In this document: one piece after another, positions 1-24,829 of the stretch
Numbering within the stretch: position 1 is the stretch's first letter
How the letters are laid out: every line of letters begins with the position of its first letter
DNA from: Hydrogenophaga intermedia
GTDB lineage: Bacteria; Pseudomonadota; Gammaproteobacteria; Burkholderiales; Burkholderiaceae_C
DNA: 34,947 bases
Direction of reading: 5' to 3'
NCBI GenBank assembly: GCA_945890705.1
Contig: CAMDCY010000014.1
Span: 1-34,947, forward strand
Program-made: the position numbers and the translations under genes
The notes under the pieces: generated by a model
Database searches by the model: none
Seen by the model: the letters and a program-made list of their open reading frames with translations, nothing else
Told to the model about the DNA's origin: nothing

Positions 1-3668
<3,668 letters not shown>

Positions 3669-3689
3669 ACACCCTCCAGAAAGCACACC

Positions 3690-4397
3690 ATGAACACCAC
3701 CGCCTACGAACAACGCCGCAGCCAGATCGAGCACTACTTTGACCGCACCGCAGCGGATGCCTGGGCGCGCCTGACCTCGAACGAGCCTGTGGGCCGCATC
3801 CGCGCGACCGTGCGCGCCGGTCGCGACACCATGCGCGAAACCCTGCTGTCTTGGCTGCCGCAAGACCTGCGTGGCCTGCGCGTGCTGGACGCCGGTTGCG
3901 GCACCGGCGCGTTGGCCTTGCAAGCGGCCCTGCGCGGGGCCGAAGTGGTGGCGATTGATTTGTCACCCACCTTGGTCAAGCTCGCCGCCGAACGCATGGC
4001 CGCCGAACACCCCACCCTACCCGGCTCGGTGGAGTTTTTGTCGGGCGACATGCTCAGCCCCGACTTGGGCCACTTCGACCATGTGGTGTGCATGGACTCG
4101 CTCATCCACTACGACAGCGACCAAATCGCCGAAGCGCTGGCCGGTTTGGCTCAGCGCACGCGCGGCTCCATGGCCTTCACGTTTGCGCCGCGTACCCCAC
4201 TCTTGGCCCTCATGCACAGCGCGGGCCGCCTGTTTCCCCGCAGCGACCGTTCGCCGTCGTTGTCGCCCGTGGCCCACGCCGACTTGCTCCAACGCATGCA
4301 GGGCCACGCCGATTTACAGGGCTGGCAAGGCGCGCGCATGCAGCGCGTGGCCAGCGGCTTCTACACCTCTCAAGCTTGGGAGTGGACCCGCTCATGA
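3690..4397 (+). CDS. bchM: Magnesium-protoporphyrin IX O-methyltransferase BchM
   Basis: 235-residue SAM-dependent methyltransferase that esterifies the ring-C propionate of Mg-protoporphyrin IX, giving the substrate of the AcsF cyclase encoded further down the same operon. The SAM-binding motif VLDAGCGTGALAL begins near residue 65, with the acidic motif-II residue in VVAIDLS about 20 residues later. Length is normal for BchM. The start lies 21 bases after the bchL stop, with only a weak purine-rich site. The stop overlaps the lhaA start as ATGA. The order bchH-L-M is the classical one of purple bacteria. Confidence 0.96.
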   Translation: MNTTAYEQRRSQIEHYFDRTAADAWARLTSNEPVGRIRATVRAGRDTMRETLLSWLPQDLRGLRVLDAGCGTGALALQAALRGAEVVAIDLSPTLVKLAAERMAAEHPTLPGSVEFLSGDMLSPDLGHFDHVVCMDSLIHYDSDQIAEALAGLAQRTRGSMAFTFAPRTPLLALMHSAGRLFPRSDRSPSLSPVAHADLLQRMQGHADLQGWQGARMQRVASGFYTSQAWEWTRS

Positions 4398-14340: not shown

Positions 14341-14538
14341 TTATTTGGGTACCGCCGCATCGGCAGCGGCGGGCGCTGCTGCGACCACCTTGTTGCCACC
14401 GTTGAGGAAGTCTTTGACCCATGTGGTGTTCATCGTCAGTGCCAAGTGCACGCTGAACGAAGAAATCGCCACCGCGGCAATGAACACTGGGATGCCCACA
14501 GAGGGCTTCACCACCAACCACATTTTCGAATAGATCAT
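14341..14538 (-). CDS. pucA: LH2 antenna alpha chain PucA
   Basis: 65-residue LH2 alpha polypeptide. His31 in SFSVHLAL is the ligand of the alpha-bound B850-ring bacteriochlorophyll. After NTTW (37-40) come Phe44 and Leu45, where B850 antennae have aromatic residues (Tyr44 with Trp45 or Tyr45); Phe-Leu is the pair known from B800-820 (LH3) chains. The Ala-rich tail (about residues 51-65) resembles that of Rubrivivax LH2 alpha. It follows pucB after 12 bases with a GGGAG ribosome site and is followed by the 14299-14322 stem-loop. Confidence 0.95.
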   Translation of the reverse strand: MIYSKMWLVVKPSVGIPVFIAAVAISSFSVHLALTMNTTWVKDFLNGGNKVVAAAPAAADAAVPK

Positions 14539-14550
14539 GTCGTTGCTCCC

Positions 14551-14703
14551 TTACTTGAGCCAGGGCGAATAGATGTAGGCCAGCAGGTGAGCAAATGCGG
14601 CAATCATGCCGAAAATCTGCGTACCCTGGATGAGATTTCGGTGAATCTCTTCCGATTCGGCCTGGGTCAGTCCCGTTGGCCAGACTTTGTCTGAATTAGA
14701 CAT
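14551..14703 (-). CDS. pucB: LH2 antenna beta chain PucB
   Basis: 50-residue LH2 beta polypeptide. His39 in AAFAHLLAY is the ligand of the ring bacteriochlorophyll and His21 in SEEIHRNL corresponds to the conserved His near B800. At residue 29 (GTQIF) a Gln stands where Rhodoblastus-type LH2 has the Arg that hydrogen-bonds the B800 acetyl group. AAGGAG at 14710-14715 precedes the ATG; the longer open frame upstream is not part of the antenna chain. pucB starts about 105 bases after crtC on the same strand. Confidence 0.95.
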   Translation of the reverse strand: MSNSDKVWPTGLTQAESEEIHRNLIQGTQIFGMIAAFAHLLAYIYSPWLK

Positions 14704-17984: not shown

Positions 17985-19073
17985 TTATTGGGCAGCGGGC
18001 TTGGCAGCCACTTTGTCGGCCAATGCGCTCACGCTTTGCTGGGGCTTTTGCAATTCAGGAAAGTCCTTGGCCATTTGCGCACCATTTAGAGGCTTGTAAG
18101 CACCTTGGTGGCAAGTCGCACAATTGAGCTTGGCCACGTCGCCCAGCGGTCCCTTGCGGTGGGCTGGGAACACCTCGGTGAGGGGCTCCATGTAGCTCAC
18201 GTTCAAGTCCCGAGCCATGCGGATGCCATGCCACGCGGTCATGCGCTGCGGTGGACTGATCTCCCAGCTTTGGAACGACTGCGTGTTGTGGCAATACGTG
18301 CAGTTCACCCCCAGCGAGGTGGACATGTGCGTCATCAAGCCATAGGTCCATTCGGCCTGTTTGATGGATTGGCGGTTGCCCGACGGCAAGGCGGTCGGTC
18401 CATTCAAGCGGATGTTTTGATCGCCCAACAAGAACGGGGTGAAAGGGTCGTTGGGCAAGGAAGACAGGTTGACCACTGGAGATGGCTCGTTTTGTCCCGA
18501 CTTGTCGCCGATGAAGTTGGAGCCTTGCGGTTGCGCATCGGCCGTGAACCAGATCTCTTTGGGCACAGGCTCGCCTCGGTGGCAGGTGTAGCAGGTCACG
18601 CCAGTTTGGGCCACGTGCGGCTGCCAATCGGCGTTGATGTGCTGCGTCATCTCCACCATGCGACGCGCCACCACCTTGGTGTACTTGCTGTCGTCGGCAA
18701 AATTCGGCAGTGCATGGCAATAAGCACACCCTTCGTTGGGCGCGACCCAATTGGTCATGGAGACCATGAGTCGGTTGAATTCGCCCACGCTCAAATTGCC
18801 CAAGACCTTGACGTTTTGATACACCTCAGAGGCTTTGGGGCCATCGGAGCCGGGCGAAGGGATGACGGGAGGGGGTTGGTTGTTTTCGGTCTTCGCGTCG
18901 AGCAAGCGCTCGTTGTAGACCTGCAGCATGCCGGTGCCACGGTAACCGCTTTGAACCGACTCGGGGCTGGGGCGTTCGCAGCCGGCCAGCACGAAACCGA
19001 TCAGCACCAAACCCAGCGCTTTGAACCAGTGCGTGTTGCGCACAGTGAAGGAGGTGAAGGTGCGCGCGTTCAT
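17985..19073 (-). CDS. pufC: Reaction-centre tetraheme cytochrome c subunit PufC
   Basis: 362-residue periplasmic electron donor to the special pair. The lipoprotein signal peptide ends in the lipobox LAGC with Cys32 as lipid attachment site. Four c-type heme motifs are present: CAYCH (116-120), CYTCH (161-165), CTYCH (258-262) and CATCH (318-322), the full tetraheme set, with Met residues placed before them as axial ligands. It overlaps pufM by ATGA. A bound cytochrome subunit separates this RC from that of Rhodobacter, which lacks PufC. Confidence 0.97.
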
Positions 19074-20047
19074 GGCTTGACTCCTGTGCTCAGCGCTGGG
19101 TCAGCCATCGCTGGAAAAATTTCGGGGTATGGTGGCGCCACGCCATGCTTGATGGCCCAGAGATACCAGTTGTCCACCACGGTGCCGGTCAGCAAGATGC
19201 CGATACCACCGGTGATCGGACACAGCACCGCGAACCACCAGGCCCAGCGGTGAATCGATTCCATGGTGGCGTTGAAGCCCATGGTCCAGCGCCAGAACAA
19301 GGCCGCGCGCTCAGAGGCGGTGCCCCGGTCGGTGATCTGCTCGATCTCGCGCTCGCCTCCGAAGCGGGTCACCGCCAAAATCGTCGCCCCGTGCATCGCA
19401 AACAGCAGCGCGGAGCCATAGAGGAATACGATGGACAGCGCGTGGAAGGGGTTGTAGAACAGGTTGCCGTAGCGCAGCGAGAAGGCCGCCGTCCAATCCA
19501 GGTGCGAGAAGATGCCGTAAGGCACAGCCTCCGCCCAAGAACCCATCAAGATGGGGCGGAACAAGCCCAACACCAAGAACAACCAAATGGCCGCGGCAAA
19601 AGCCCAAGCGATGTGCGTGCCCATGCCGAGTTCGACCGCGCGGCGGTAGGTGCGGGCCCACCAGAACAAGACCGATGCGGTGAGGAACAAGCCCACGATG
19701 AGGAACCAGCCGCCTTGGTTGAGCGGCGGCAGACTCAGGCCGTAGCTCGGCGGCGGCGGCTCCAGCGAGAGCCAGAACAACTGGCGCACGAACTGGATGG
19801 GGTCGAAATTCACCGAGGCCAGCATGTTCATGCCGATCAGGGTGAAGGCGATCAGACCACAAAACAGCGAGATTACGCCTAGACCTCCCAAATAGATTGG
19901 GCCTAACTGGGCATTGCCCAATTTACCAATCCAATAACTCAGTATGGGTTGCCCGGTGCGCGGGCTGTTGCCGTGTCCAAGCGGCACCCCTTGGTGCACC
20001 GGACCCACGGCTTGCACCGTGGTGAACAGGTTTTGATAGTCGGCCAT
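19070..20047 (-). CDS. pufM: Reaction-centre M subunit PufM
   Basis: 325-residue five-helix RC subunit that binds the special pair, QA and the non-heme iron with PufL. Signature segments visible: [17 protein letters not shown] with the special-pair His, [15 protein letters not shown] with an iron-ligand His, and [20 protein letters not shown] carrying the Glu and His iron ligands. A good GAGGAG site precedes ATG 20047, 48 bases after pufL. The C-terminus reaches about 20 residues beyond the last helix; no pufX-like gene follows, pufC does. Confidence 0.98.
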
Positions 20048-20095: not shown

Positions 20096-20932
20096 TCACA
20101 CCGGCCACTGAGACCAGATCGGCATGTTCAGCCACCAGCTCCACCACTCAGGCCAGCCGCGACTCCAGAAGGGGCCGCTGAGCACGATGCACAAGGCACT
20201 GAACAGCACGGCGGCTAGCGCCAAGAACAGGCCCAGGCGGTGGATGCCCAGGGTGCCGATCGAGTAACCGATGATGTCGCGAAAGAACGTGTCTTCGTGC
20301 TCAGGTGTCTTGACCAAGGTACCCGGTGCGGGGTTGGTGGACGACAAGATCAAACCACCGTGCAGCGATAAGGCAAACACACTGGCGAAGAAGAAGCTCA
20401 CGGCGATCATGTGCGCCGGGTTGTAGTGGAAATGCAGGTACTGGTAGCCCACGTTGGACACCCAGTCGAGGTGGCTGTAGATACCATACGGAAAGCCGTG
20501 ACCCCAAGCGCCCATGAGCACGGGGCGAATGATCACCAAAGAGACGTAGCCGAAGATGGCCACGCCAAAAGCAAAGGGCACGTGAAAGCCCATGCCCAAC
20601 TTGCGGCAAATTTCCACCTCGCGCAACATCCACGAGACGAAAGCACCGAGCGCGCAGACCGTGATGAGCTGCCACAGGCCGCCTTCCATCAGGGGCGCAA
20701 AGCGCAAGCCATACGACAGATCAGGCGGTGCGATGCTGATTTGCCAAAGGTTCCAAGTGGGTCCTTGTGAGGCACCCCACAAAATCAGGGCCGTGCCCAG
20801 GAACGAAAAGAACAGGGTTGTCACGCCGAAAAAACCGACGTAAAACGGTCCGACCCAAAAGTCGAACAAATCACCACCCAGCAGGGTACCACCGCGAACA
20901 CGGTACTTTTTCTCAAAACTCAGCATGGCCAT
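20096..20932 (-). CDS. pufL: Reaction-centre L subunit PufL
   Basis: 278-residue five-helix RC subunit; with PufM it holds the bacteriochlorophyll dimer, pheophytins and QB. Signature segments: [20 protein letters not shown] with the special-pair His, and [13 protein letters not shown] with an iron-ligand His, followed by [20 protein letters not shown] with the second. Ribosome site AGGAGGA at about 20940-20946 precedes ATG 20932. A gap of 83 bases separates it from pufA and holds stem-loops. Confidence 0.98.
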
Positions 20933-20962: not shown

Positions 20963-21022
20963 AGGTGCCGCATCGACGCGAGGTCAATGACAGCACCTGA
21001 ACGACAAGTCCTGGATCAGGAC
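20963..21022 (-). promoter_or_regulatory. Stem-loops in the pufA-pufL junction
   Basis: Two inverted repeats. A compact one pairs GTCCTG (21008-21013) with CAGGAC (21017-21022) around a three-base loop and spans the pufA stop codon. A wider one pairs CAGGTGC (20963-20969) with GCACCTG (20994-21000). Neither is followed by a U-run. By analogy with the Rhodobacter pufBA-pufL region they may protect the antenna segment of the mRNA from 3' decay. Function is inferred from place and shape only. Confidence 0.55.
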
Positions 21023-21225
21023 CTGGGGACGACGATCGAAGCGACCGAAGGTGGCAGCGGCGAGTTTTGCGCCGATGCCGCCACGGGCTTTTTCGCGCCG
21101 TCGAGCCAGTTGAATTTGTTCGTGCTGAGCAAGATGAGGTGAATCATCGCGGCCAGGCCGAACAAGAAAATACCCTGTACCACCATGGCACGCAAAGGGT
21201 CGTAAAGTCGCCAAATTCTCCACAT
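21016..21225 (-). CDS. pufA: LH1 antenna alpha chain PufA
   Basis: 69-residue LH1 alpha polypeptide. It starts with the typical [13 protein letters not shown] membrane-entry sequence; His29 in [10 protein letters not shown] ligates bacteriochlorophyll and Trp40 in KFNWLDG is at the +11 position that hydrogen-bonds the pigment. The C-terminal tail of about 25 residues is longer than in many LH1 alpha chains. The ribosome site TAGGAG overlaps the stop codon of the preceding 74-residue ORF, so their translation is coupled. Unusually, it is not adjacent to pufB. Confidence 0.95.
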
Positions 21226-21235
21226 GGTGAATCTC

Positions 21236-21460
21236 CTAAATGATGTGGGACATGAAGGTGTACACAGCCGCGGTCACACCTTGACTCATGCTCTTGGCAT
21301 CTTCTGCGCCGGGCAGCAACTCTCGCCAGTGAACGCCGACCAGCTTGGCCAGTAGGACGACCACGAACAGACAGGCGAACCCGATGAAGAAAATGGACCA
21401 ATACGCAGGTGACTCATCCGCACGCGAATGGTCTTTGTGGAAGTGCTTGGTGTTTTGCAT
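21236..21460 (-). CDS. 74-residue membrane protein inserted between pufB and pufA
   Basis: I do not recognise this gene with certainty. It has a His/Lys/Asp-rich N-terminus (1-18), one membrane span (about 20-43, from [20 protein letters not shown]), then [13 protein letters not shown] and a second short hydrophobic tail ([16 protein letters not shown], 59-74). No His lies inside the span, so it is not an ordinary antenna chain. The R-x-L-L-P step after the span plus amphipathic tail recalls PufX; the HWRELL end also recalls the WRPW end of a beta chain; PufQ has similar length. GGAG at 21469-21472 precedes the ATG, and its stop overlaps the pufA ribosome site. It is almost certainly translated with the puf genes. 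Confidence 0.82.
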
Positions 21461-21487
21461 GGCAGTGACTCCGTCAATCGATGGATG

Positions 21488-21512
21488 AAAAAATCAGTTC
21501 TGAATCAGAACC
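21488..21512 (-). terminator. Terminator-like stem-loop at the pufB stop codon
   Basis: On the minus strand GTTCTG pairs with CAGAAC around a three-base loop (21497-21511), and six U residues follow after three bases (21488-21493). The stop codon of pufB is inside the hairpin. The stem is short (six pairs, three of them GC), so it should at most stop part of the transcripts or act as an mRNA 3' block, since essential puf genes lie downstream. Function is inferred. Confidence 0.55.
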
Positions 21513-21648
21513 AGGGACGCCACGCCCAGACCAGGATGTGGGCCAGCACAGCGACCGCTGTGAAGCCCACCAAGCCCTGCATCCAGTAGTGGTGGAACTC
21601 CTGGGCTTCCTCATCGGTGAGTCCGGAAATTGATGTCTTTGTGGACAT
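21505..21648 (-). CDS. pufB: LH1 antenna beta chain PufB
   Basis: 47-residue LH1 beta polypeptide. It carries the beta-chain signature [14 protein letters not shown], the bacteriochlorophyll ligand His37 in VLAHILVW and the C-terminal WRPWF with Trp46 at the +9 hydrogen-bonding position. AGGAG at 21655-21659 lies seven bases before the ATG and directly after the stop of a 31-residue ORF. It is the first antenna gene after bchZ, as in other purple bacteria, but pufA does not follow directly. Confidence 0.96.
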
Positions 21649-21660
21649 GTTTTGCTCCTA

Positions 21661-21756
21661 TTAACAAGGCCTTGCGACCGGGGATGCGCACAACCCGCGC
21701 AGATGGGCATCCGCAGCCAAAGGCCACGACATCTTGGTTGTGGGGTGGGTATTCAT
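21661..21756 (-). CDS. Possible 31-residue ORF coupling bchZ to pufB
   Basis: The frame starts with an ATGA overlap at the bchZ stop and ends one base before the pufB ribosome site. The peptide begins [20 protein letters not shown] and contains two Cys and no membrane span. This is where pufQ lies in Rhodobacter, but the peptide is too short and lacks the PufQ membrane helix. It may be a relay ORF for translation from bchZ to pufB, a remnant, or chance. Function unknown. Confidence 0.3.
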
Positions 21757-23279
21757 GCAGCCACCCCCAAGCCCAGTTCGCGGCTGGCCGCGTTCACATG
21801 GGCTTCGGTCACCTCGCCATGGCCTTGGGCCTGCGAGAGTTGTTCGGCCTGGTCGCGCAAGCGCTTGGCCGCTGAAATCTGCACCAGCACCGGCTGGTTT
21901 TGCACCACATCGCGCAAGCGCTGCTGGGCTTGGTCTTGCCAACTGGCGTTGGGCGGCGACACACCGCGCGCTTGCGTGGCTTCGACTTTGTCCATCTCCG
22001 TGCCCAAGGGCAGGATGTGGAAGAGCGCATCGAACAAGGCGTTGCACACTTCTTGGATCAGGTAGCTCGCACCGCTGTAACCCATGAAGGGCGTGCCGGT
22101 GTGGCGGCGGATGATGGCGCCAGGAAAGGACGCTGGGATGAAGGCCGCGCGCATAGGGCTGCCGCCCGAAATTTCGCTCAGGTACATGCGCTCGTTGTAG
22201 CTGCCGAACATGATGAGCGGCGTTTGCGTCTTCACCATTTCGCGCACCGCAGCGTTGTCGGTTTTCTTGCCCGCGGTTCGCGACACGCTGAAGCGGCAAG
22301 GCAAACCCATTTCGTTTTCGAGGAAGTTTTTCAAGCCCCTGGAATAGGTCTCGCCCGCCACCACGGCAAAGCTGGCGGTGGCAAAGAAGTCTTGCGTGAC
22401 CGAGCGCCACAGGTCCCACATGGGCTTCAAGGTGGTGTGCTTTTCGCGCTCAATGAAGGGCTCGGGGTCCAGGTGCAGCAGTTCGCCCAATTTGCGCAAG
22501 AAGTTGGTGGTGCTGTGCAAGCCAATCGGCGCTTGCAAATAGGGGCGCTCCAGCGCCTCGCACAACATGCGGCCGAACTCGCGGTACATGCAGATATTCA
22601 CATCGGCCTCGACCAAACGAGAAACGTCGGCGAGGTGGCTGCCCAAGGGGAAGACCATGTTGACCTCAGCGCCGATGCCTTGCACTAGGCGGCGGATCTC
22701 GGCCAAGTCACTCGCACTGTTGAAGATGCCATAGCAAGGTCCGATGATGTTCACGCGGGGCTTTTCATCGGCAGGGCGTTCTTCAAAAGGCTTGCGCGCA
22801 GGCACTTTGCGCAGACCGTATTCACTCCAGAGCCAGTACATGGCGCGGTTGGCGCATTGCCATTGGTCTTCGTCGATGGTGCGGGGCAAAAAGCGTGCGA
22901 TGTTGGTGCCTTCGGGCGTGACGCCGCCGCCGATCATCTCGGCGATCGAGCCGGTCACCACCACCGCGGGCAGTTCGGGGTCGAGCGTGGCATGCGCACG
23001 TTTCATGGCGCCTTCCGTGCCTTCACGGCCGAGTTGCTCTTCGGCCAGGCCCGTCACCACAATCGGCAGTTCGTGCGGAGGCAAAGCGTCGGTGTAGTGC
23101 AGCACCGAGGTCACGGGCAGGTTTTCGCAGCCCACCGGGCCGTCGATCACCACCTGCAAACCCTTGATGGCGGTGAACACATACACCGCACCCCAGTAAC
23201 CGCCTGCGCGGTCATGGTCGAGGATGAGCGGCGACTTGGGCTTGGCCACGGAGCTTGGCGGCAAGGTGACGTTGGTCAT
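21753..23279 (-). CDS. bchZ: Chlorophyllide a reductase subunit BchZ
   Basis: 508-residue NifK-like subunit of chlorophyllide a reductase (BchXYZ), which reduces ring B on the way to bacteriochlorophyll a. Family segments: [20 protein letters not shown] and [14 protein letters not shown] near the N-terminus, with the cluster-ligand Cys, and [13 protein letters not shown] mid-way. The ATG at 23279 overlaps the bchY stop as ATGA; the longer open frame upstream is bchY sequence. The C-terminus has a PCP-red-like helical region. puf genes follow on the same strand. Confidence 0.97.
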
Positions 23280-24829
23280 GAACCCATCTCCTCGGCTTTG
23301 CGCTTTTTCAGGATCTTTTCCAGTTGGCGGCGGGTTTCGGCCTTGAACTCGGGCCGGTCTTTGGGCACCGACTCCCACACGCCGGCGGCGTGGCCTGCAC
23401 CCACATCGCCAAAGAACGACTTCATGGCGTCAAAGCGGGCCTGGTTGCCCATGACCGCTTGCACCACTTGCACCAGCGATCCGGCACCGGCCACGCCCAT
23501 GAGGGGACGGGCCGAGATCAGATTGGTGAAGTACAAGGACGGCACGCTGTTTTGCTTGGCGATCTGCACCACCGGGGTGGTACCGATGGCCAGGTGCGGC
23601 CGGTATTCGTACATGGCGTTGAGGTCTTGCTCGAGTGAGGCGCGCATTTGCACCTGCACGCCCTTGGCTTGCAGCCAGGCGATGTCTTGTGCATTCCACT
23701 CGGTGGCGGGACAAGCCGAGCCCACGTAGCGCAGATCGGCCCCGCACTCGATGAGCAAACGGCCCACCAACAACTCGGAGCCCTCGTAACCACTCAGGGT
23801 GATGCGACCCGAGATGGGCTTTTGCATCAAGAGCCCGCGCATTTGTGCCAGCGACTGGTTGCGTGCCACATCGATCTGTGACTGCGCAATACCGGCCGCT
23901 TGGCCGATGTTTTGCAACCAGTCTTGAGTGCCATCCAAGCCCACCGGGGCCGAGCCCACGATGGGGCGACCGGCGGCTTTGAATTCGCGCACGCTGGCGG
24001 TGTAGAACGGGTGAATGGCGGCGGCCACCGAGCAGTCGAGCGCGGCATACAACTCGCGCCATTCGCGGGTGGGCACCACTGGGCCAGCAGCCAGGCCCAT
24101 GGGGGCGAGCATTTGGCCGATGATGACTGGATCGGCTGGGAACATTTCACCCAGCAGGGCCACCGTGGGCAGATCGCCACGACCGGCGCGGGGCGCGGCC
24201 ACCGGGCCACTCATGATTTCTTCGCGAGCGTATTTCAGCATCGCCCCGGCCAGCACGTCCTTGGCTTCGGCGTGCGTGGGCACGCCAAAACCGGGCACGT
24301 CAATGCCGATGATGCGCACACCGTTGATCTCTTTGGGCAGTAACTGCAGCGGCACGCCACTGGCCGTGGGCACACACAGGTTGATGATGATGACGGTGTC
24401 GACCTGACTCGGGTCGGCTTCAGCATGCACCGCTTCGCGGATGTCTTCAAACAGCTTGCCGGTGACCAGCGACTCAGAGTTGAAGGGCACATAGCCCACG
24501 CTGCGGCGTGCACCGTAAAAATGCGAAGTGAACGTGAGGCCATACACGCAACAGGCCGAGCCCGACAAGATGGTGGCGGTGCGCTTCATGCGCAAACCCA
24601 CACGCAGCGAGCCAAAGGCTGGGCACATGCTTTGCGGCTGGTCGTGTGGACCGGCATCGGGTTGGCGCGGGTAGTCACGAGCGAACTGCTCAAGCACCTC
24701 GGACTTTCCAGCTTGCTTGGCAGCAGCCACCATGGCTTCAGTACCGGCGTGGCAACCCATGCCGTCGCCTTGCAAGCCTGCAGGGTTGGGGGCGTCGGTG
24801 CTGGGGAGAATCGGGATGGTGCGCGACAT
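23276..24829 (-). CDS. bchY: Chlorophyllide a reductase subunit BchY
   Basis: 517-residue NifD-like partner of BchZ. The Cys residues expected to bind the catalytic-component 4Fe-4S cluster are seen in [19 protein letters not shown] and GSACCVYG. Conserved [20 protein letters not shown] follows. The start is 13 bases after bchX, the only non-overlapping junction within bchC-X-Y-Z. Length is normal for BchY. Confidence 0.97.

Follow-up and report, generated by a model that had tools for sequence, protein, structure and literature searches.

The window (the whole 34,947-nt stretch analysed here) carries on its minus strand a photosynthesis gene cluster in the order bchX-bchY-bchZ-pufB-ORF74-pufA-pufL-pufM-pufC, in which pufB and pufA were identified by family searches as ordinary LH1 genes and the names bchX, bchY, bchZ and pufC are ones that we presume. 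The gene between pufB and pufA is here given its published name, ORF74.

21753-23378, minus strand: presumably bchZ, 5' of pufB, named from its place in the order bchX-bchY-bchZ
21505-21648, minus strand: pufB, LH1 beta, short form (NCBIfam pufB, E 2.1e-23)
21469-21472, minus strand: GGAG, ribosome site of ORF74, 8 nt 5' of its ATG (duplex energy -6.1 kcal/mol)
21236-21460, minus strand: ORF74, 74 aa, ATG start, almost certainly an LH1-beta paralogue, without the bacteriochlorophyll (BChl) histidine
21233-21237, minus strand: AGGAG, ribosome site of pufA, overlapping the ORF74 stop codon TAG (21236-21238)
21016-21225, minus strand: pufA, LH1 alpha (NCBIfam pufA, E 7.8e-18; ATG at 21223-21225)
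20096-20932, minus strand: pufL, reaction centre L
19070-20047, minus strand: pufM, reaction centre M
17985-19073, minus strand: reaction-centre cytochrome, presumably pufC from its position and CxxCH motifs

The earlier note had described a 74-residue frame that separates pufB from pufA and has its own ribosome site and a stop codon overlapping the pufA ribosome site, all of which was borne out at these positions, with both neighbours identified by NCBIfam. The window pufB product ends in WRPWF and has no tail. The gene order ending in a pufC-like gene is common to the window and the puf loci of its relatives. A second LHC gene pair at 14416-14661 on the minus strand (32.7 and 30.4 bits to PF00556) is probably an LH2 (puc) beta/alpha pair.

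The earlier note proposed the product as a candidate new RC-LH1 subunit; the gene is already published as ORF2 of Rubrivivax gelatinosus and as ORF74 of Roseateles depolymerans, with function unknown. The available sections of one paper state that the puf operon of Rvi. gelatinosus contains two functionally unassigned ORFs, one of them, ORF2, lying 5' of pufA, and align ORF2 with PufA/PufA2 proteins, remarking on the missing central histidine (PMC12817894). By place this is the same gene, and loci L059 and L061 carry ORF74 5' of pufA. The Rvi. gelatinosus ORFs reportedly go back to a 1994 paper. In those available sections ORF2 was compared with PufA/PufA2 only (PMC12817894), whereas here ORF74 was aligned to LH1 beta. 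The Roseateles gene, likewise matched by place, is RD2015_RS05155, flanked by pufB (RS05150) and pufA (RS05160); according to the available part of that report, pufA, pufB and ORF74 are co-transcribed on the major 1-kb puf transcript, their transcripts respond most strongly to carbon starvation, and in a sigma-factor mutant they retain 0.71, 1.09 and 2.34% of transcript, respectively (PMC10037100). A table in the same part includes ORF77 (RS05175), whose locus number adjoins that of pufM (RS05170) and which drops along with the puf genes (PMC10037100). In the open-access literature we found no paper giving ORF74/ORF2 a family or function; its beta paralogy is new here.

A scan of genome_contigs yielded 171 pattern-matched stretches, 122 of which encode an ORF74 relative. 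Among the best 80 of these 122, pufA lies within 60 nt 3' of ORF74 in every locus and pufB just 5' of it in 79, the remaining locus (L079) starting inside the operon. The order pufB-ORF74-pufA, which the earlier note had proposed to follow into relatives, is kept in Limnohabitans, Rubrivivax and others; named holders of the gene are Limnohabitans planktonicus, Rubrivivax gelatinosus, Rvi. benzoatilyticus and Piscinibacter defluvii. No ORF74 match was detected in the plasmid collection. Across 33 sequences of the Limnohabitans type, among them the window, the gene has a dN/dS of 0.108 as a whole and of 0.016 in the W-R-L-P-G-A-E loop that follows the membrane span. A chance ORF is ruled out by the 122 relatives, the fixed pufB and pufA neighbours and the overall dN/dS. 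The C-terminal helix motif AVYTFMSH is exact in 83 of 114 distinct proteins, and VYT[FLV][MIL]S is matched by 107 of the 114. A subgroup with a divergent pufA (MWRxWRxxDPxKAI...; L125-L129 and L147) has ORF74 tails such as YTVISQ in place of YTFMSH. Two loci whose titles name Akkermansia muciniphila and Candidatus Fonsibacter lacus (L012 and L053) hold a Burkholderiales-type puf cluster and are probably misbinned or mislabelled MAG contigs.

Profile searches indicate that ORF74 is almost certainly a divergent LH1 beta paralogue. Searched against the PDB, a 37-sequence ORF74 profile placed 8z81_B at the top (E 1.2e-14), followed by 9m8m_B, which is labelled LH1 beta (2.7e-11), and 7xxf_B (4.5e-10); of the 45 sequences reached at E 10 or better, the first 39 are light-harvesting chains, among which the label beta is frequent and the label alpha by itself absent. 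Antenna chains also ranked first when the window protein alone was searched with phmmer (8z81_B, E 0.002; 9m8m_B, 0.011). Profile-profile comparisons, in which E-values are per single comparison and 14 reversed-profile ORF74 controls gave at least 0.049, matched ORF74 to long beta at E 4.9e-19 (probability 99.1%; reversed controls 0.093 and 0.3) and to short beta at 9.8e-10, and a relation to PufA was rejected at 0.078. In whole-genome searches, with E-values per one genome, the ORF74 profile took the adjacent pufB as its second match in 40 of 54 ORF74 genomes (E 2e-8 to 1.2e-4), these second matches being identified as pufB in the loci read. The single window protein gave no match to Pfam LHC and only DUF983 below the cut-off (E 0.043). 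Pfam LHC was reached by one of 37 ORF74 members (E 4.6e-4), and three of the 37 had slightly better weak matches to YdcZ and DUF2567 (best 5.1e-5 and 6.5e-5); these two and DUF983 were set aside as weak matches of hydrophobic segments.

In a joint alignment all 109 betas have the BChl-binding histidine but only 1 of 114 ORF74 proteins does, the rest having glutamine (57), lysine (33), serine (9) or another residue in this column. The window ORF74 has lysine, so the earlier note was right that its span has no histidine ligand. The columns W+6 (113/114), R+7 (108/114), P+11 (112/114) and G+12 (114/114) are kept, and the preset G-A-E filter applied to these counts removed 0 of 136 matches. ORF74 thus aligns with LH1 beta (PufB; PF00556, NCBIfam NF040862), especially the long-tailed 8z81_B, 9m8m_B and 7xxf_B, over the transmembrane segment, sharing W+6 and R+7 and retaining W-R-x-x-L-P-G-A-E, in which L-P-G follows W-R as in long betas. 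It differs in lacking the BChl histidine, the conserved EFH histidine and P+8, in its distinct and conserved tail (AVYTFMSH), and in occurring alongside a normal beta. The profile matches and the column counts (histidine, W-R, L-P-G) support the earlier suggestion that ORF74 is a beta-like chain whose pigment ligand was lost. The alternative that ORF74 is the severed tail of beta was rejected because it has a full transmembrane segment of its own. Glutamine can ligate chlorophyll in other antennae and may do so at this column for BChl, so that the pigment-free state of ORF74 is something we infer. An AlphaFold2 model (37-row alignment) has a helix at residues 18-48, a turn and a C-terminal helix at 58-73; its confidence is low (mean pLDDT 66, pTM 0.36), and we therefore take only a predicted two-helix outline from it. 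Foldseek with this model against the PDB returned nothing significant (best E 6.3).

The window's family (f1), which from its named relatives and from GTDB usage as we understand it we take to be Burkholderiaceae, was sampled with 399 genomes; 64 have reaction-centre genes, and these were covered by a six-frame ORF74 profile search and by reading of loci. ORF74 occurs with a short beta in 54 of the 64, the beta ending no more than two residues past R-P-W in every case, and seven have a long beta and no ORF74. One (G115) has a short beta and, 5' of pufB, the ORF called preB below, and two were unreadable; G374, where the sequence 5' of pufL is unrelated and may reflect a misjoin, and G209, at a contig end, were left out of the state counts. 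All seven family genomes with neither ORF74 nor preB encode a beta with a 28-residue tail, and the six-frame search gave no second match to the ORF74 profile in these seven, three of which are below 95% completeness. The beta is short in 79 of the 79 genome_contigs loci where it is visible. In a bchZ-pufL-pufM tree the long-beta genomes fall within the ORF74 genomes. A free quick search splits them in two (2 changes, forced by well-supported branches); a tree keeping the seven together scores higher and is not rejected (p-AU 0.66), from which we take the switch between ORF74 and long beta to be one event, perhaps two. A tree of pufL only, poorly resolved and with 5 changes for the long-beta genomes, was replaced by this one. 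The exchange of ORF74 for a long beta within one family suggests that ORF74 and the long-beta tail do the same job. Counter to such an equivalence, G115 has neither; tail-only profiles of ORF74 and long beta match within noise (E 0.0074, probability 5%).

In 101 of the 114 distinct sequences the ORF74 stop codon touches the pufA ribosome site, either overlapping it or directly adjoining it; in all 114 the stop is 10-18 nt 5' of the pufA ATG. These readings were made by script for 112 of 129 stretches and by eye for L125 and L126, neither of which has an overlap; the other 15 stretches are long-beta, G115 or outside loci. Median duplex energies of the ribosome sites are -8.0 kcal/mol for pufB, -6.4 for ORF74 and -7.3 for pufA (119, 123 and 123 sequences), so the three predicted strengths are comparable, with ORF74 the weakest. 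The overlap, the similar ribosome sites and the shared Roseateles message point to ORF74 being translated with coupling to pufA and produced at the pace of alpha and beta; this would favour a structural or stoichiometric role in assembly over that of a trace factor.

Our main reading, to which we give a probability of roughly 45%, is that ORF74 is a pigment-free chain associated with LH1 and substitutes for the beta tail. On this reading an LH1 beta gene was duplicated and one copy, ORF74, lost the BChl histidine while its transmembrane segment and its turn at the membrane edge (W-R / L-P-G-A-E) stayed beta-like; the helix at its C-terminus is strongly conserved. The chain would be translated from the message that also encodes beta and alpha, between the two, would adopt the topology of beta, N-terminus inside, and would sit within the LH1 ring or against it, where its C-terminal helix could supply in trans what the long-beta tail supplies in cis. 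Its contact at the membrane surface might aid assembly of the alpha-beta ring or keep the spacing of the ring around the reaction centre, and the chain may either remain in RC-LH1 or only assist assembly, like PufQ. What is at stake is an ORF that entered print without a name through the model organism Rubrivivax gelatinosus and that most phototrophic genomes sampled from the family carry; Limnohabitans and its kin are common lake bacteria. A beta that lacks the pigment ligand, is under strong selection beside a pigment-binding beta and is swapped with a beta tail offers a handle on the function of long tails. It also bears on the origin of PufQ, and both questions become testable in a genetically tractable host.

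That the frame is mainly a translational relay setting pufA expression, with an incidental peptide, seems very improbable. The position of the stop codon would suit a relay, as would the last 13 codons (window 21239-21277), where dS is 0.124 among the 33 Limnohabitans-type copies, compared with 0.33-0.67 elsewhere in the gene, but the amino acids of remote copies are conserved and third codon positions differ across the wider set, the most constrained loop (dN/dS 0.016) lies away from the stop, and RNA folding at the junction is not significant (three stretches, z -0.46 to 1.27). No RNA fold accounts for the low dS at the 3' end; a hairpin hiding the pufA start, with the S-H-I codons pairing AUGUGG, was discarded because it folds no better than shuffles and third positions vary in distant relatives. 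PufX and protein-W are single-span RC-LH1 accessory proteins, and ORF74, with one predicted span, could resemble them in breaking the LH1 ring as one copy per complex and opening a quinone route. A span in the puf operon without the histidine ligand accords with this proposal, a pigment-less beta-like chain could fill one alpha-beta place, PufX (PF11511) was absent from all five family genomes searched for it, and the ORF74 profile matches, at E 0.0074, a single-copy chain of PDB 8k5o labelled antenna alpha/beta domain. We nevertheless consider a ring opener quite unlikely. The likeness to PufX put forward in the earlier note did not hold: the match to a profile of four PufX sequences is weak (E 0.0065, probability 5.8% versus 99.1% for long beta; reversed controls 0.075 and 0.61), a relation to PufX was rejected, and the R-x-L-L-P turn cited as a PufX trait aligns with W-R-P-W-L-P-G of long betas. 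The gene also lies in the pufBA segment and not directly after pufM, the place expected of pufX, and protein-W likewise differs from ORF74 in gene position; the window has a pufC-like gene, and in known cases pufC accompanies PufX-less rings. The LH1 gamma and gamma-like chains of Blastochloris and Rhodopila are extra single-span LH1 chains, as is proposed for ORF74. None of the 45 PDB sequences matched by the ORF74 profile bears the label gamma, and no solved chain corresponding to ORF74 was found by this search. The Rhodopila gamma-like polypeptide has 22 residues, and its gene lies far from pufLMC in the opposite orientation, according to the available part of its description (PMC9640540).

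Outside the family the ORF74 profile found mostly tailed betas and, in three genomes (G414, G758 and G779), also an ORF 5' of pufB. An iterated search for this type of ORF, preB, detected it in 10 of the 27 phototrophs outside the family in the phylum sample, in G115, and in 10 additional genomes from a class sample of 385. preB matches the ORF74 profile at E 1.8e-10 (2.2e-13 with 21 preB sequences) and long beta at 1.6e-12; it aligns end to end with PufQ at E 3.1e-4 (probability 40%), and ORF74 itself matches PufQ weakly, at E 2.8e-4 (41%), with reversed controls of at least 0.049 for both. Ten preB members scanned had no Pfam or NCBIfam match over the cut-off, and one of them had matches below it to NCBIfam pufB (E 0.0012) and Pfam PufQ (E 0.021). 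Among the 27 outside phototrophs, 10 have PufQ alone (all of family f55), 10 have preB alone, 7 have neither and none has both; f55 and f38 are, at a guess from gene content, Rhodobacteraceae and Bradyrhizobium-like, respectively. No locus read carries two of ORF74, preB and PufQ; 37 outside loci were examined, two of them (L164 and L176) from one genome (G729), and preB was searched for in 18 of the 64 family genomes (8 of the 54 with ORF74), the others being judged from the loci read. Long beta accompanies preB in 20 of 20 outside loci and short beta accompanies ORF74 in 54 of 54, the betas beside PufQ or ORF74 having at most three extra residues. In the seven long-beta family genomes the preB profile matches only the long beta itself. 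The PufQ family PF05398 is over the cut-off in 0 of 53 family genomes searched (53 of the 64, window genome included), and among 80 genomes searched only in 10 of family f55.

The preB relatives in the pufQ position, together with this exclusive pattern, make a PufQ-type role a serious rival, and they argue for an accessory role of ORF74 against the ring-chain reading. On this account, which we hold as a tentative but real possibility, ORF74 is the Burkholderiales PufQ-type accessory, acts in assembly (pigment supply, tetrapyrrole flux or ferrochelatase contact) and then leaves the complex; a beta-derived ancestor 5' of pufB (preB, or PufQ where present) would have shifted between pufB and pufA. 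G115, alone among the readable family genomes in combining a short beta with the lack of ORF74, has an upstream preB, as such a shift would suggest. ORF74 and PufQ are of similar length, each have one predicted span and a conserved C-terminus, and are encoded in the puf operon, their profile similarity being weak; the available part of a PufQ study gives the transmembrane helix and C-terminus as its conserved parts (PMC5725709). They differ in that the PufQ gene lies 5' of pufB, PF05398 is confined to f55 among the 80 genomes, and PufQ is reported in the same part to act at the haem/BChl branch point via ferrochelatase (PMC5725709). Of the earlier idea of a PufQ-like factor, the related ORF in the pufQ position in other families stands in its favour, and the weakness of the direct PufQ match and the absence of PF05398 from the 53 family genomes searched count against it, as does the association of preB with long beta and of ORF74 with short beta. 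The C-terminus of LH1 beta is periplasmic. That of PufQ is instead predicted to be cytoplasmic in the sections available (PMC5725709), and the presence of the Roseateles gene on the major 1-kb pufBA message (PMC10037100, seen in part) would exceed what a trace factor needs. A broader scheme that we regard as rather unlikely would make PufQ, preB and ORF74 one family of degenerate LH1 betas no longer binding pigment, whose Burkholderiales member entered the high-dose pufB-pufA segment, took over the discarded tail of beta and became a stoichiometric pigment-free ring subunit setting ring closure or quinone passage.

The preB genes of the outside loci (L149, L151-L153, L155-L158, L161, L216 and L226-L235) are single-span ORFs between bchZ and pufB with a tail of the type SVFGEAKAMAxSxIPFAFMG. 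In the G115 locus (L122) the preB-type ORF occupies 3394-4179 on the minus strand and ends about 110 nt 5' of pufB, and the short pufB stands directly before pufA, an arrangement that is possibly the older gene order.
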